Source: Nitrospinota bacterium
Lineage (GTDB): Bacteria; Nitrospinota_A; UBA7883
Direction of reading: 5' to 3'
Length of the DNA: 34,456 nucleotides
Assembly: GCA_016207925.1 (NCBI GenBank)
Contig: JACQZB010000032.1
Location: 1 to 34,456 of the forward strand
Shown: piece by piece, positions 19,656 to 27,690 of the stretch
Position numbering within the stretch: the first letter of the stretch is position 1
How the letters are laid out: every line of letters begins with the position of its first letter
Translations under genes and position numbers: made by a program
Notes under the pieces: model-generated
What the model saw: only the letters and a program-made list of their open reading frames with translations
What the model was told of the DNA's origin: nothing
The model's database searches: none

Positions 19656-21663
19656 GTGAAAGAGCTGCTGTTTGAAATCGGGATGGAGGAGGTTCCCTCC
19701 GGCTACATCCTGCCCGCCGCCGAATCCTTGCTGGCGTCCGTGAAGCAGCGGCTCGACAGCCTCAACCTCACCTACGCCGATCCGCAAAGCTACGCCACGC
19801 CGCGGCGCCTCGCGGTGTCGTTCCTGAACGTGCCGGACCGCCAGCCCCAGCGCGTCGTGCGCCTGTACGGTCCGCCCAAGGCGGCGGCGGTGGCGCCCGA
19901 TGGCGCGTTCACCAAGGCCGCGCTCGGCTTTGCCAAAAGCAAGGGGGCCGATCCGGCTTCGCTGAAAATCGGGAGTACGGACAAGGGCGAATACGTGTAC
20001 GTGGAGGTCAACGAAGGTGGCGCGCCGGTGGTTGATTTGCTGGCCGCCGCGCTCCCCGAAATCGCCGCGGCCTTGCCGTTCCCCAAATCCATGCGGTGGG
20101 GCGGAAGCGATTTCCGTTTCGCCCGCCCGATCCACTGGGTTGTGGCGCTGTTCGGCGGCGCGGTGATTCCCATGACGCTCGGCGGCATGGCCGCGGGCGG
20201 CGCCACCCGCGGGCACCGGTTCATGGGCGCCGCCGCCATCCCCGTCACCTGCCGCGCGGATTACCTGGCGCGGGGGCGCGCGCGCCGCGGCGCGGGGGCA
20301 TGGCGCCGCGCTGGTGGAGGACGGCGAACTGGCCACTTCCGTCGCCTGCCTCACCGAATGGCCCCATGCGCTGTGGGGTTCGTTCTCACCGGAGTACCTG
20401 GAACTTCCGGCGGAGTTGCTGACCGCCTCGATGAAAAACCACCAGCGCATGTTCTCCGCCGCCGGGCAGGACGGCAAGCTTACCAACGGTTTTATCGGCG
20501 TCTCCAACATGATCGTGGAGGACGACGCAGTGGTCGTGGCCGGATACCGGCGCGTACTGGCCGCCCGGCTGGCCGACGCCAAGTTCTTTTTCGACACCGA
20601 CCGCAAAAAACGGCTTGAGGATTTCGCCGCCCGGCTCGACGGCGTGGTCTATCAGAAGAAACTGGGCACGGTGGGGGAGAAAATCGCCCGGTTCGCCGCT
20701 CTGGCCGCGCATATCGCCGCCGCTGTCAAGCCGGAGCTTGCCGCCGAAGTGGTTCGCGTGGCCCGCCTGTGCAAGGCCGACCTGGAGACCCAGATGGTGT
20801 ACGAGTTCCCGGAGCTGCAGGGCGTCATGGGCCGCGAGTACGCCCGCCATCAGGGAGAACCGGAATCCGTATGCCAGGCGATCCACGAACACTACAAGCC
20901 GCGGTTTTCCGGCGATACGGTACCCGCTGGCCATCCCGGCGCCATTGTGGGCTTGGCCGACCGGCTGGACACGCTGGCCGGCTGTTTCGGCGTGGGGCTG
21001 ATCCCCACCGGCGCCGCCGATCCCTTCGCCCTGCGCCGCGCCGCCCTAGGCGTGATTCAGACTATTATTGAAAAAGACTACCGGCTCGGCCTTGCCGGGC
21101 TTTTCGATTTCGCGCTGAGCCAACTCGCCGGGAAAATAGATTCGTCACCGGAGGCCGCGCGCGCCCAAATGCTCGACTTTTTTGCGGCGCGCCTTAAAAA
21201 CCTGTGGACCGGCCAGGGCGCGGCGCCGGACGTGGTGGACGCCACGCTGGCGGCCGGTTTTGACGACCTTGCCGCCGCACGGATGCGCCTGGAGGCGATG
21301 ACGGAACTCAAGAAACGCGACTTCTTCGAGCCGCTGGCGGTGGCCTTCAAGCGCGCGGCCAACATCACCCGCGGCCACGCGCGCGGCCCGGTGCATCCTG
21401 CTTTGTTCGAGGCGGACGCCGAAAAAGAATTGAACGCCGCGATCGCGGGCATCGCTTCGGAAGTAGCCTCGTCGCTTGAACAGCGGCGGTATCTTGCGGC
21501 GCTGGAAAAAATCGCGGGACTGCGCGGCGCGGTGGACCGGCTGTTCGATTCGGTCATGGTCATGGCGGATGATCCGAAGGTGAGGGAGAACCGGCTGAAC
21601 CTTCTCGCCTCGCTGACGGCGCTGTTGGGAGCGATTGCGGATTTCTCGCGCGTCGAAGCGTAA
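19656..21663 (+). pseudogene. glyS: Glycyl-tRNA synthetase beta subunit, frameshifted with an internal gap
   Basis: The first frame (GTG at 19656) gives a normal GlyS N-terminus: 'ELLFEIGMEEVPSGYILPAA', 'SMRWGGSDFRFARPIHWVVA' and 'GATRGHRFMGAAAIPVT', good to about residue 205. It then degenerates. A second frame resumes at about 20302 with 'ALVEDGELATSVACLTEWP' and runs intact to 21663 ('SMKNHQRMF', 'KFFFDTDRKKRLEDFAARLD', the HD-like and anticodon-binding regions). The joined product would be about 30 residues shorter than usual, so this is a deletion of roughly 70-90 bases plus a frameshift, inside the extremely GC-rich 20265-20312 with a direct repeat of GGCGCGGGGGC. GlyS with GlyQ is essential in organisms using the alpha2beta2 enzyme, so an assembly error is likely. 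glyQ is not adjacent. Confidence 0.88.
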
Positions 21664-24506: not shown

Positions 24507-25497
24507 ATGCCGGTCGAGCTTTCGGATGAAACCTTCATGCGGCGCGCGCTGGAACTGGCGCGGCGCGGCAAGGGGCGGACCGCGCCCAACCCGGCCGTGG
24601 GCGCGCTGATTGTCAAGAACGGCCGCATCGTCGCCGAAGGCTGGCACCGCAAGGCGGGCAAACCCCATGCGGAGATCGAGGCGTTGCGCGCCGCGCGTGA
24701 ATCCGTATCAGAGGCCACGATGTATGTCACCCTGGAGCCGTGCAACCACCAGGGCCGCACCGGCCCCTGCGCGCAGGCGGTCATCGCCGCCGGAATCGGC
24801 GCGGTGGTCATCGGCGCGCGCGACCGTTCAACCAAACCCGGCCCCAAGGGCGCCGCCGCGTTGCGCCGCGCGGGTGTAGCCGTCCGCGGCGGAATCATGC
24901 GCGCCGAATGCGAGCGCATGGTGGAGGATTTCCACAAACATGCCGCCACTGGCCTGCCGCTGGTGACGCTCAAGGCCGCCGTCACGCTGGACGGCAAAAT
25001 CGCGTCGCGCTCATGGGACAGCAAATGGATCACCACTCCGGCGTCGCGCGCGCTTGTCCATCAAATGAGGAATGAGTCTGGCGCGGTCATGGTGGGCGCG
25101 GATACGGTGATATACGACGACCCGCGGTTGACCGTCCGTGTTGGCGCGCGCCGCCGCGACCCTCTGCGGGTGATCGTGGACGGCGGGCTGCGCATCCCCC
25201 TCGCCGCCCAGGTGGTCAAAACCGCGCGAGAAACGCCTACTCTCATCGTCACCACGCGCCGGCGGCGTGATGAGCCTGCTGGTGGAAAGCGGCGGCGCGT
25301 TGGCGGCGGCGCTGCTTGAACAGCGGCTGGTTGACCGCGCGGCCTTTTTCATCGCGCCCAAGATCATCGGCGGCGCGCGCTGCGCCATCCCCGCGCGCGG
25401 GCCGCAAAAAATGGCGGACGCCTGGCGGCTGGGGCAAGTCTCCTTCCGGCCCTCCAACGGCGATATGATAATAGAAGGAACGATTGAATACAGGTAA
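24507..25497 (+). pseudogene. ribD: Riboflavin biosynthesis deaminase/reductase RibD, frameshifted with an internal gap
   Basis: RibD deaminates and then reduces the pyrimidine intermediate of riboflavin synthesis. The deaminase half is intact: 'TAPNPAVGALIVKNGRIVAE', 'PHAEIEALRAA' and 'VTLEPCNHQGRTGPCAQAVI' hold the zinc ligands. The reductase half starts normally ('VTLKAAVTLDGKIA', 'WITTPASRALVHQMRNES', 'VGADTVIYDDPRLTVR') and runs to 'TLIVTTRR' near residue 252. There the frame is lost. A second frame from about 25265 gives the expected C-terminus 'VMSLLVESGGALAAALLEQR' to 'MIIEGTIEYR'. Between these blocks family members have about 40-50 more residues, so a segment is missing and the frame changes at the junction. 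Either the gene is dead or the assembly is wrong. Confidence 0.88.
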
Positions 25498-25501
25498 CCG
25501 C

Positions 25502-25966
25502 ATGTTCACCGGCATCATCATCGGCGTGGGCAAAATCGGCGCGGTCCGGCATGGCGCGGACGGCCTTTCCATGGACGTGGACACCGCGGGCGCCGTCCCC
25601 GATCCCGTCATCGGCGAAAGCGTGGCGCTCAACGGCGTCTGCCTGACAGTAACCGCCGCCCGCGGCCCGCTTTTAACGTTCGACGTTTCAGGGGAAACGT
25701 TGCGCCGCACCACGTTGAGCGACGCCGCCCCGGGCCGCGACGTGAACATCGAGCGCGCCCTGCGCTTGGGCGACCGGTTGGGCGGCCATCTGGTGCAGGG
25801 CCATGTGGACGGCGTTGGGACCGTCGCCGCCGTCACCCCGGCGGGTGAGGGGTACGATGTGGAGATCGAACTGGCAAAATACGTTGAAAACTTTACGCGC
25901 CCGTTGATTTCCGGTGGTGGTGTGAATGAGCAGCTTTTGCGCCGCGCCGGATATTTGCCGGAATAG
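25502..25966 (+). CDS. ribE: Riboflavin synthase alpha-type, second lumazine-binding domain mostly missing
   Basis: Riboflavin synthase converts two 6,7-dimethyl-8-ribityllumazine molecules to riboflavin, using two similar barrels per chain. The first barrel is normal from the ATG at 25502: 'MFTGIIIGVGKIGAV', 'ESVALNGVCLTVTAA', 'GETLRRTTLSDAAPG' and 'RLGGHLVQGHVDGVGTV'. At 'YDVEIELA' the sequence jumps straight to 'KYVENFTRPLISGGGVNEQL', which belongs after the second barrel. About 60 residues, including the second GVSLTV-type motif, are absent, leaving 154 instead of about 215, with the frame kept. As read it should bind ligand but not form a normal active site. The ORF track begins six codons earlier at a TTG. 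Confidence 0.87.
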   Translation: MFTGIIIGVGKIGAVRHGADGLSMDVDTAGAVPDPVIGESVALNGVCLTVTAARGPLLTFDVSGETLRRTTLSDAAPGRDVNIERALRLGDRLGGHLVQGHVDGVGTVAAVTPAGEGYDVEIELAKYVENFTRPLISGGGVNEQLLRRAGYLPE

Positions 25967-25975
25967 GAAACACGC

Positions 25976-27202
25976 ATGAGCGAACAGGAACGAAAATTCA
26001 ACACCGTCCAGGAAGTCGTGGACGATTTGCATGACGGCAAAATGGTGATCCTCCTCGATGACGAGGATCGCGAGAACGAAGGCGACCTGATGATCGCCGC
26101 GGAGAAGATCACCCCCCAGGCGGTGAACTTCATGGCCCGCGAAGCGCGCGGGCTGATCTGCCTGGCGCTGACCCCCCAGCGCTGCGACGAGTTGGATCTG
26201 CCGCCGATGACGCGCGACAACACCTCCGCGTTCGGCACCGGCTTCACCGTCTCCATAGAGGCGCGCCGCGGCGTCACCACCGGCATCTCCGCCGCCGACC
26301 GCGCCACCACCATCCTCACCGCCATCAGCCCCCAGACCCGGCCCGAGGATTTGGCCCGGCCCGGCCACGTGTTCCCCTTGCGCGCGCAAGCGGGCGGCGT
26401 GCTGGTGCGCGTGGGCCAGACGGAAGGTTCCGTGGACCTGTGCAAAATCGCCGGGATGACCCCCGCCGCCGTGATCTGCGAAGTCATGAAGGACGACGGC
26501 ACCATGGCCCGCGTCCCGGATTTGACGGAATTCGCCGCGCGGCACGGCCTGAAGATGATCACCGTCAAGGAGATCGTGGGCTTCCGGCTGAAAACCGAAA
26601 GCTTCGTCCACCGCGCCGCCGAAACCACCATCCCCACCCGGTTCGGCGTGTTCAACGCCATCGGCTATGAAAACTCCATCAACAAGGACGTGCACCTGGC
26701 CTTGACCATGGGCGAGGTGGGCAATGGCGAGCCGTGCCTGACGCGCGTCCATTCCCAATGCCTCACCGGCGACGTGTTCGGCAGCGAGCGGTGCGACTGC
26801 GGCGAGCAGCTCATCCACGCCATGGAGATGATCGCCAAGGAAGGGCGCGGGGCGCTGTTGTACCTGCCGCAGGAAGGGCGCGGCATCGGCCTTATCAACA
26901 AGCTGCGCGCCTACCACCTGCAAGACGAAGGAAAGGACACCGTGGAAGCCAACGAGTCCCTGGGGTTCCACCCCGACCTGCGCGACTACGGGCTGGGCGC
27001 GCAGATTTTGCGCGACTTGAACATCCATAAACTGCGGCTGATGACCAATAACCCGCGCAAGATCGTGGGCCTCGACGGCTACGGGCTGGAGATTGTCGAG
27101 CGCGTACCCATCGTCTGCCAACCCAAGGACAGCAACCTGCGCTATCTGGACACCAAACGCTCCAAGCTGGGCCACCTGCTGGACGCATTGGTCAAACCCT
27201 GA
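25976..27202 (+). CDS. ribBA: Bifunctional DHBP synthase / GTP cyclohydrolase II
   Basis: The 408-residue fusion starts both branches of riboflavin synthesis. The RibB half (1-205) has 'MVILLDDEDRENEGDLMIAA', 'TGFTVSIEARRGVTTGISAA' and 'RPGHVFPLRAQAGGVLVR'. The RibA half carries 'RVHSQCLTGDVFGSERCDCG', which supplies the three zinc cysteines, and 'YLPQEGRGIGLINKLRAYHL'. It is full length, unlike its upstream neighbours. An AGGAAAC stretch precedes the ATG. Its position ribE-ribBA-ribH is standard. Confidence 0.96.
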   Translation: MSEQERKFNTVQEVVDDLHDGKMVILLDDEDRENEGDLMIAAEKITPQAVNFMAREARGLICLALTPQRCDELDLPPMTRDNTSAFGTGFTVSIEARRGVTTGISAADRATTILTAISPQTRPEDLARPGHVFPLRAQAGGVLVRVGQTEGSVDLCKIAGMTPAAVICEVMKDDGTMARVPDLTEFAARHGLKMITVKEIVGFRLKTESFVHRAAETTIPTRFGVFNAIGYENSINKDVHLALTMGEVGNGEPCLTRVHSQCLTGDVFGSERCDCGEQLIHAMEMIAKEGRGALLYLPQEGRGIGLINKLRAYHLQDEGKDTVEANESLGFHPDLRDYGLGAQILRDLNIHKLRLMTNNPRKIVGLDGYGLEIVERVPIVCQPKDSNLRYLDTKRSKLGHLLDALVKP

Positions 27203-27225: not shown

Positions 27226-27690
27226 ATGGTGAAAACACTGGAAGGGACGCTGGAGGGCGCCGGACTGAAATTCGCCCTGGTGGTGAGCCGGTTCAACGAT
27301 TTCCTTAACGCCAAGCTTTTGGACGGCGCGCTGGACTGCCTGCGCCGCCACGGCGTCAAGGAAGGCGACATCACCGTGGCGCGCGTCCCCGGCGCGTTCG
27401 AGATACCCTTCGCCGCCCGCAAAATGGCGGCGTCGAAACAATACCATGCGGTGATCCTGCTGGGCGCCATCGTGCGCGGCGCCACCAGCCACTACCAGTA
27501 CATCTCCGCCGAGGTCGTCAAGGGCGCCGCCCAGGTCATGCTCGATACCGGCGTCCCCGTGGCCCTGGGCGTCATTACCGTGGAAACCCTGGAGCAGGGG
27601 ATCGAACGCGCCGGAACCAAGTCCGGCAATAAAGGCTGGGACGCCGCCATGGCCGCCATCGAAATGGCGCGCCTCAACGATACTTTGTAG
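27226..27690 (+). CDS. ribH: 6,7-dimethyl-8-ribityllumazine synthase
   Basis: RibH condenses the pyrimidine from RibD with dihydroxybutanone phosphate from RibBA; it forms pentamers or 60-subunit capsids. The 154 residues show '[20 protein letters not shown]', '[15 protein letters not shown]', '[20 protein letters not shown]' with the catalytic histidine, and '[20 protein letters not shown]'. GGAGA lies eight bases before the ATG. It is complete. Confidence 0.96.

Follow-up and report, generated by a model that had tools for sequence, protein, structure and literature searches.

The break in the ribD gene of this Nitrospinota bacterium is, with a probability of about 0.9, an artefact of assembly, and the organism itself almost certainly carries intact copies of ribD, ribE and glyS. 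Lesions of the same kind are present in unrelated genes of this genome and absent from the relatives with which it was compared (five cases versus none), and the genes struck include glyS and ligA, sole copies of essential genes. The window, that is, the whole stretch of DNA that was analysed, is the complete contig C3 (34,456 bp) of a genome in 170 pieces, with a total of 2.67 Mb and an estimated completeness of 91%. The features of the window that bear on the argument are collected in Table 1.

Table 1. Positions in the window of the interrupted genes, their junctions and the intact neighbours
Feature	Position	Strand	Basis
glyS (glycyl-tRNA synthetase beta), N-terminal part, frame 3	19656..20270	+	PF02092 positions 1-202; blastx
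glyS junction, about 56 nt gone and frameshift; nearly all-GC, direct repeat GGCGCGGGGGC	20268..20300	+	four relatives
glyS, C-terminal part, frame 1	20278..21663	+	PF02092 positions 223-535
ribD, N-terminal part: deaminase and first half of reductase domain, frame 3	24507..25259	+	PF00383, PF01872 positions 1-107; 52-62% identity to relatives
ribD junction, probable false join: about 113 nt of reductase domain gone, frame 3 to frame 1	25256..25267	+	eight relatives
ribD, C-terminal part of reductase domain, frame 1	25264..25497	+	PF01872 positions 129-189; blastx to relatives
ribE (riboflavin synthase), in-frame loss of about 61 aa including the second lumazine-binding domain	25502..25966	+	154 aa versus 214-239 aa in relatives; single Lum_binding stretch
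ribE deletion junction, EIEL/AKYVENF	25870..25890	+	MAFFT alignment with seven relatives
ribAB, intact neighbour	25976..27202	+	both Pfam domains full length
ribH, intact neighbour	27226..27690	+	PF00885 positions 1-137 of 139

Structure of the ribD lesion

As the first-pass annotation had claimed, two conserved blocks of the reductase domain, TLIVTTRR in frame 3 and VMSLLVESGG in frame 1, are brought together in different frames, approximately 10 bases apart, at 25256-25267. The reading frame is clean on either side, with frame 3 running from the start at 24507 to about 25256-25262 and frame 1 from about 25264 to the stop at 25497. The N-terminal zinc deaminase domain is present (PF00383, 80.2 bits against a cut-off of 25), and the Pfam domain RibD_C (PF01872) is split across the two frames, positions 1-108 in the first and 129-187 in the second, with about 113 nt missing, so that no complete single-frame C-terminal reductase domain was found in ribD.

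Eight comparable relatives from the same family and order possess an uninterrupted ribD of 364-385 codons, lying in one of them within a longer open frame, and the break was recovered by blastx with each of the eight, which is not compatible with chance. The net loss against these relatives amounts to 110-116 nt with a mode of 113 (exactly 113 in six of the eight), which is not a multiple of three and corresponds to about 38 amino acids; the relatives are some 50-75% identical, and neither the exact missing bases nor short overlaps at the junctions are readable from them. The loss of a segment proposed in the first-pass annotation therefore stands, whereas its size, given there as 40-50 residues, was set slightly too high. 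The GC content by codon position is similar in the two halves of the gene (0.70/0.54/0.82 versus 0.66/0.51/0.81) and thus gives no sign of decay, in agreement with what had been noted earlier. The marks of a genuine pseudogene were not found in ribD, the halves of which lack further decay, and essential genes are struck as well. A functional copy elsewhere had been suggested as something to look for; in a Pfam search of the genome the two halves were the sole RibD_C matches, and no second ribD came to light.

In two of the relatives, the matches to ribD are divided between contigs (C106 and C115 in G002, C291 and C198 in G003). Breaks in ribD are therefore also seen in further drafts from this family; as these are highly fragmented, this may be chance.

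Lesions in other genes

The gene lies in a riboflavin operon context, with ribE, ribAB and ribH downstream on the same strand. The sole riboflavin synthase match in the genome, ribE, adjoins ribD on the 3' side and retains its C-terminal tail (AKYVENF...), and the missing stretch of about 61 amino acids holds most of the second lumazine-binding domain. When the whole window was compared with the relatives, ribAB, ribH, nusB and ppdK proved to be intact.

Two of the genes struck have no part in riboflavin synthesis and are essential. At a distance of 5 kb upstream of ribD, glyS has lost a net 56 nt against all four relatives compared, with a change of frame at about 20270, and the 11-mer GGCGCGGGGGC occurs twice at the junction within an almost pure-GC stretch. 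This is the only GlyRS beta gene of the genome, in which the homodimeric GlyRS has no match above its cut-off. On a different contig, ligA (L136 12555-14394, contig C16) lacks about 51 amino acids and is frameshifted; it is the only adenylation-domain NAD-dependent DNA ligase found in the genome in a search for NAD-dependent ligases. GlyRS is indispensable to bacteria, and so, as a rule, is the NAD-dependent ligase. Since a cell devoid of GlyRS is not viable, and both glyS and ligA are destroyed in the sequence as written, the lesions are best read as errors, namely as false joins; the glyS lesion at least, and very probably all the lesions, are absent from the organism.

These data bear directly on the possibility that ribD, and perhaps ribE as well, was inactivated by a genuine recent deletion in a lineage that now obtains its riboflavin externally or uses a different reductase. 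The lesion in ribD is clear-cut, and both ribD and ribE belong to the same pathway, as pathway loss would predict. Such a deletion is nevertheless very unlikely, given that the adjoining ribAB and ribH are intact, that the C-terminal part of ribD has a normal codon-position composition, and that glyS and ligA, which are essential and lie outside the riboflavin pathway, carry the same kind of lesion. It is likewise highly improbable that functional ribD and ribE have truly been lost and ribAB and ribH kept, with riboflavin taken up or another reductase employed, and that only the glyS and ligA lesions are errors.

Frame-shifting losses were detected in two further genes. In an ABC transporter ATPase (L128 12585-12984, contig C8), about 108 amino acids are missing and the frame is shifted; beside the junction, the Walker A motif reads GPNGARKT, not GPNGAGKT, a change that is unlikely in a live gene, and the replacement of this near-invariant glycine at the junction is what would be expected from poor sequence at a contig end. 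An acyl-CoA ligase (L131 618-2203, contig C11) is frameshifted near its C-terminus, with a net loss of 43 nt and about 21 residues of the reference missing.

We used a uniform blastx survey that records every place where two alignments to a single reference protein lie in different frames and leave part of the reference uncovered between them; it was not designed to detect in-frame losses, and ribE is an additional case of that type. The survey covered approximately 870 kb of the 2.67 Mb genome, together with 1.28 Mb of one four-contig relative and parts of seven others. It returned six matches in this genome, five of them credible (glyS, ribD, ligA, the ABC ATPase and the acyl-CoA ligase). 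The count of frame-shifting deletions was thus five here, over 196,889 bases of aligned coding sequence, and zero in the eight relatives, over 303,539 bases; if events were proportional to length, the probability of all five falling in this genome would be 0.009, with the qualification that two of the five lie in the window, from which the search started, and three were found independently. The sixth match (L171 at 5536) was dropped, its alignments being to a shadow frame. A pterin/B12-binding methyltransferase-like protein (L152 at about 4045, contig C26) carries a small frameshift in a linker rich in proline; this involves no net deletion and was not counted.

The first-pass annotation had described the event in ribD as recent or artificial. 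That statement is supported, and the lesions in glyS, ligA and two more frameshifted genes, together with the truncated ribE and the lack of such cases in the relatives, favour the second term.

Origin of the lesions

Nine runs of N, 3-95 nt in length and irregular, are present in the pieces of the assembly that were read. N-gaps of irregular length are typical of paired-end scaffolding. One gap of 32 N faces a single residue in a relative, indicating that distances in the scaffolds are poorly estimated. The assembly artefact that we favour would have arisen in such a scaffolded draft if stretches of about 40-330 nt were left unassembled at several places and their flanks were joined directly, without Ns, whereby a conserved gene would lose a segment and usually its frame. 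The joins were probably made by gap closing or through a short overlap that arose by chance, and we infer that reads supporting the joins would be absent. Jumping during amplification would be another way of producing this error.

On that alternative, polymerase jumping during amplification of the whole genome or of the library would have produced the deletions ahead of sequencing, and the chimeric reads would then have been assembled faithfully. The extreme GC content and the repeated 11-mer at the glyS junction favour polymerase jumping, and windows of 40-100 nt at this junction fall within the lowest 0.4-1.2% of folding energies. Folding is ordinary, however, at the ribD junction (at 40-60 nt) and at those of ribE, the ABC ATPase, the acyl-CoA ligase and ligA; unusual folding at 40-60 nt is accordingly absent at five of the six junctions, and no consistent repeat or hairpin common to them was found, which leaves polymerase jumping a slim prospect. 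Hairpins or GC dropout as a general cause were rejected, as glyS alone stands out. The contig ends are not richer in GC than the interior (0.586 versus 0.625), and the ribD junction is surrounded by an imperfect inverted repeat, which was dropped as lying within the ordinary range. Rejoining of the genes at the level of RNA or translation, by frameshifting, hopping or split proteins, has nothing in its favour except the open frames on either side, and its likelihood is close to nil, as about 38 (ribD), 19 (glyS) and 61 (ribE) conserved residues are missing from the DNA and no reading mechanism supplies them.

Comparison with known systems

Automatic annotation would score this organism as riboflavin-auxotrophic, and ribD, ribE, glyS and ligA as pseudogenes, when the pattern across genes shows that it is the draft sequence that is at fault. 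Inspecting the sole-copy essential genes of a genome for lesions of this kind is an inexpensive way of recognising such cases.

The ribD gene described here resembles the RibD/RibG bifunctional deaminase-reductase (PF00383 and PF01872) in its domain order, its conserved blocks and its neighbours ribE-ribAB-ribH-nusB, and differs from it, as written, in its broken frame and in lacking about 38 reductase-domain residues. Tools for gap closing in short-read drafts use local reassembly to connect contigs (PMC5596377); like those drafts, this assembly consists of scaffolds with gaps. Apparent pseudogenes in bacterial genomes are often real genes, and their appearance has been linked to low coverage ('Many purported pseudogenes in bacterial genomes are bona fide genes', PMC11017572). 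As in the cases treated there, conserved genes here look frameshifted through assembly, and more often than in relatives; unlike the one- or two-base indels of that study, the lesions in this genome are net losses of tens to hundreds of bases. Spurious pseudogenes that originate in assembly are already documented, and in this respect the ribD case is an ordinary one.
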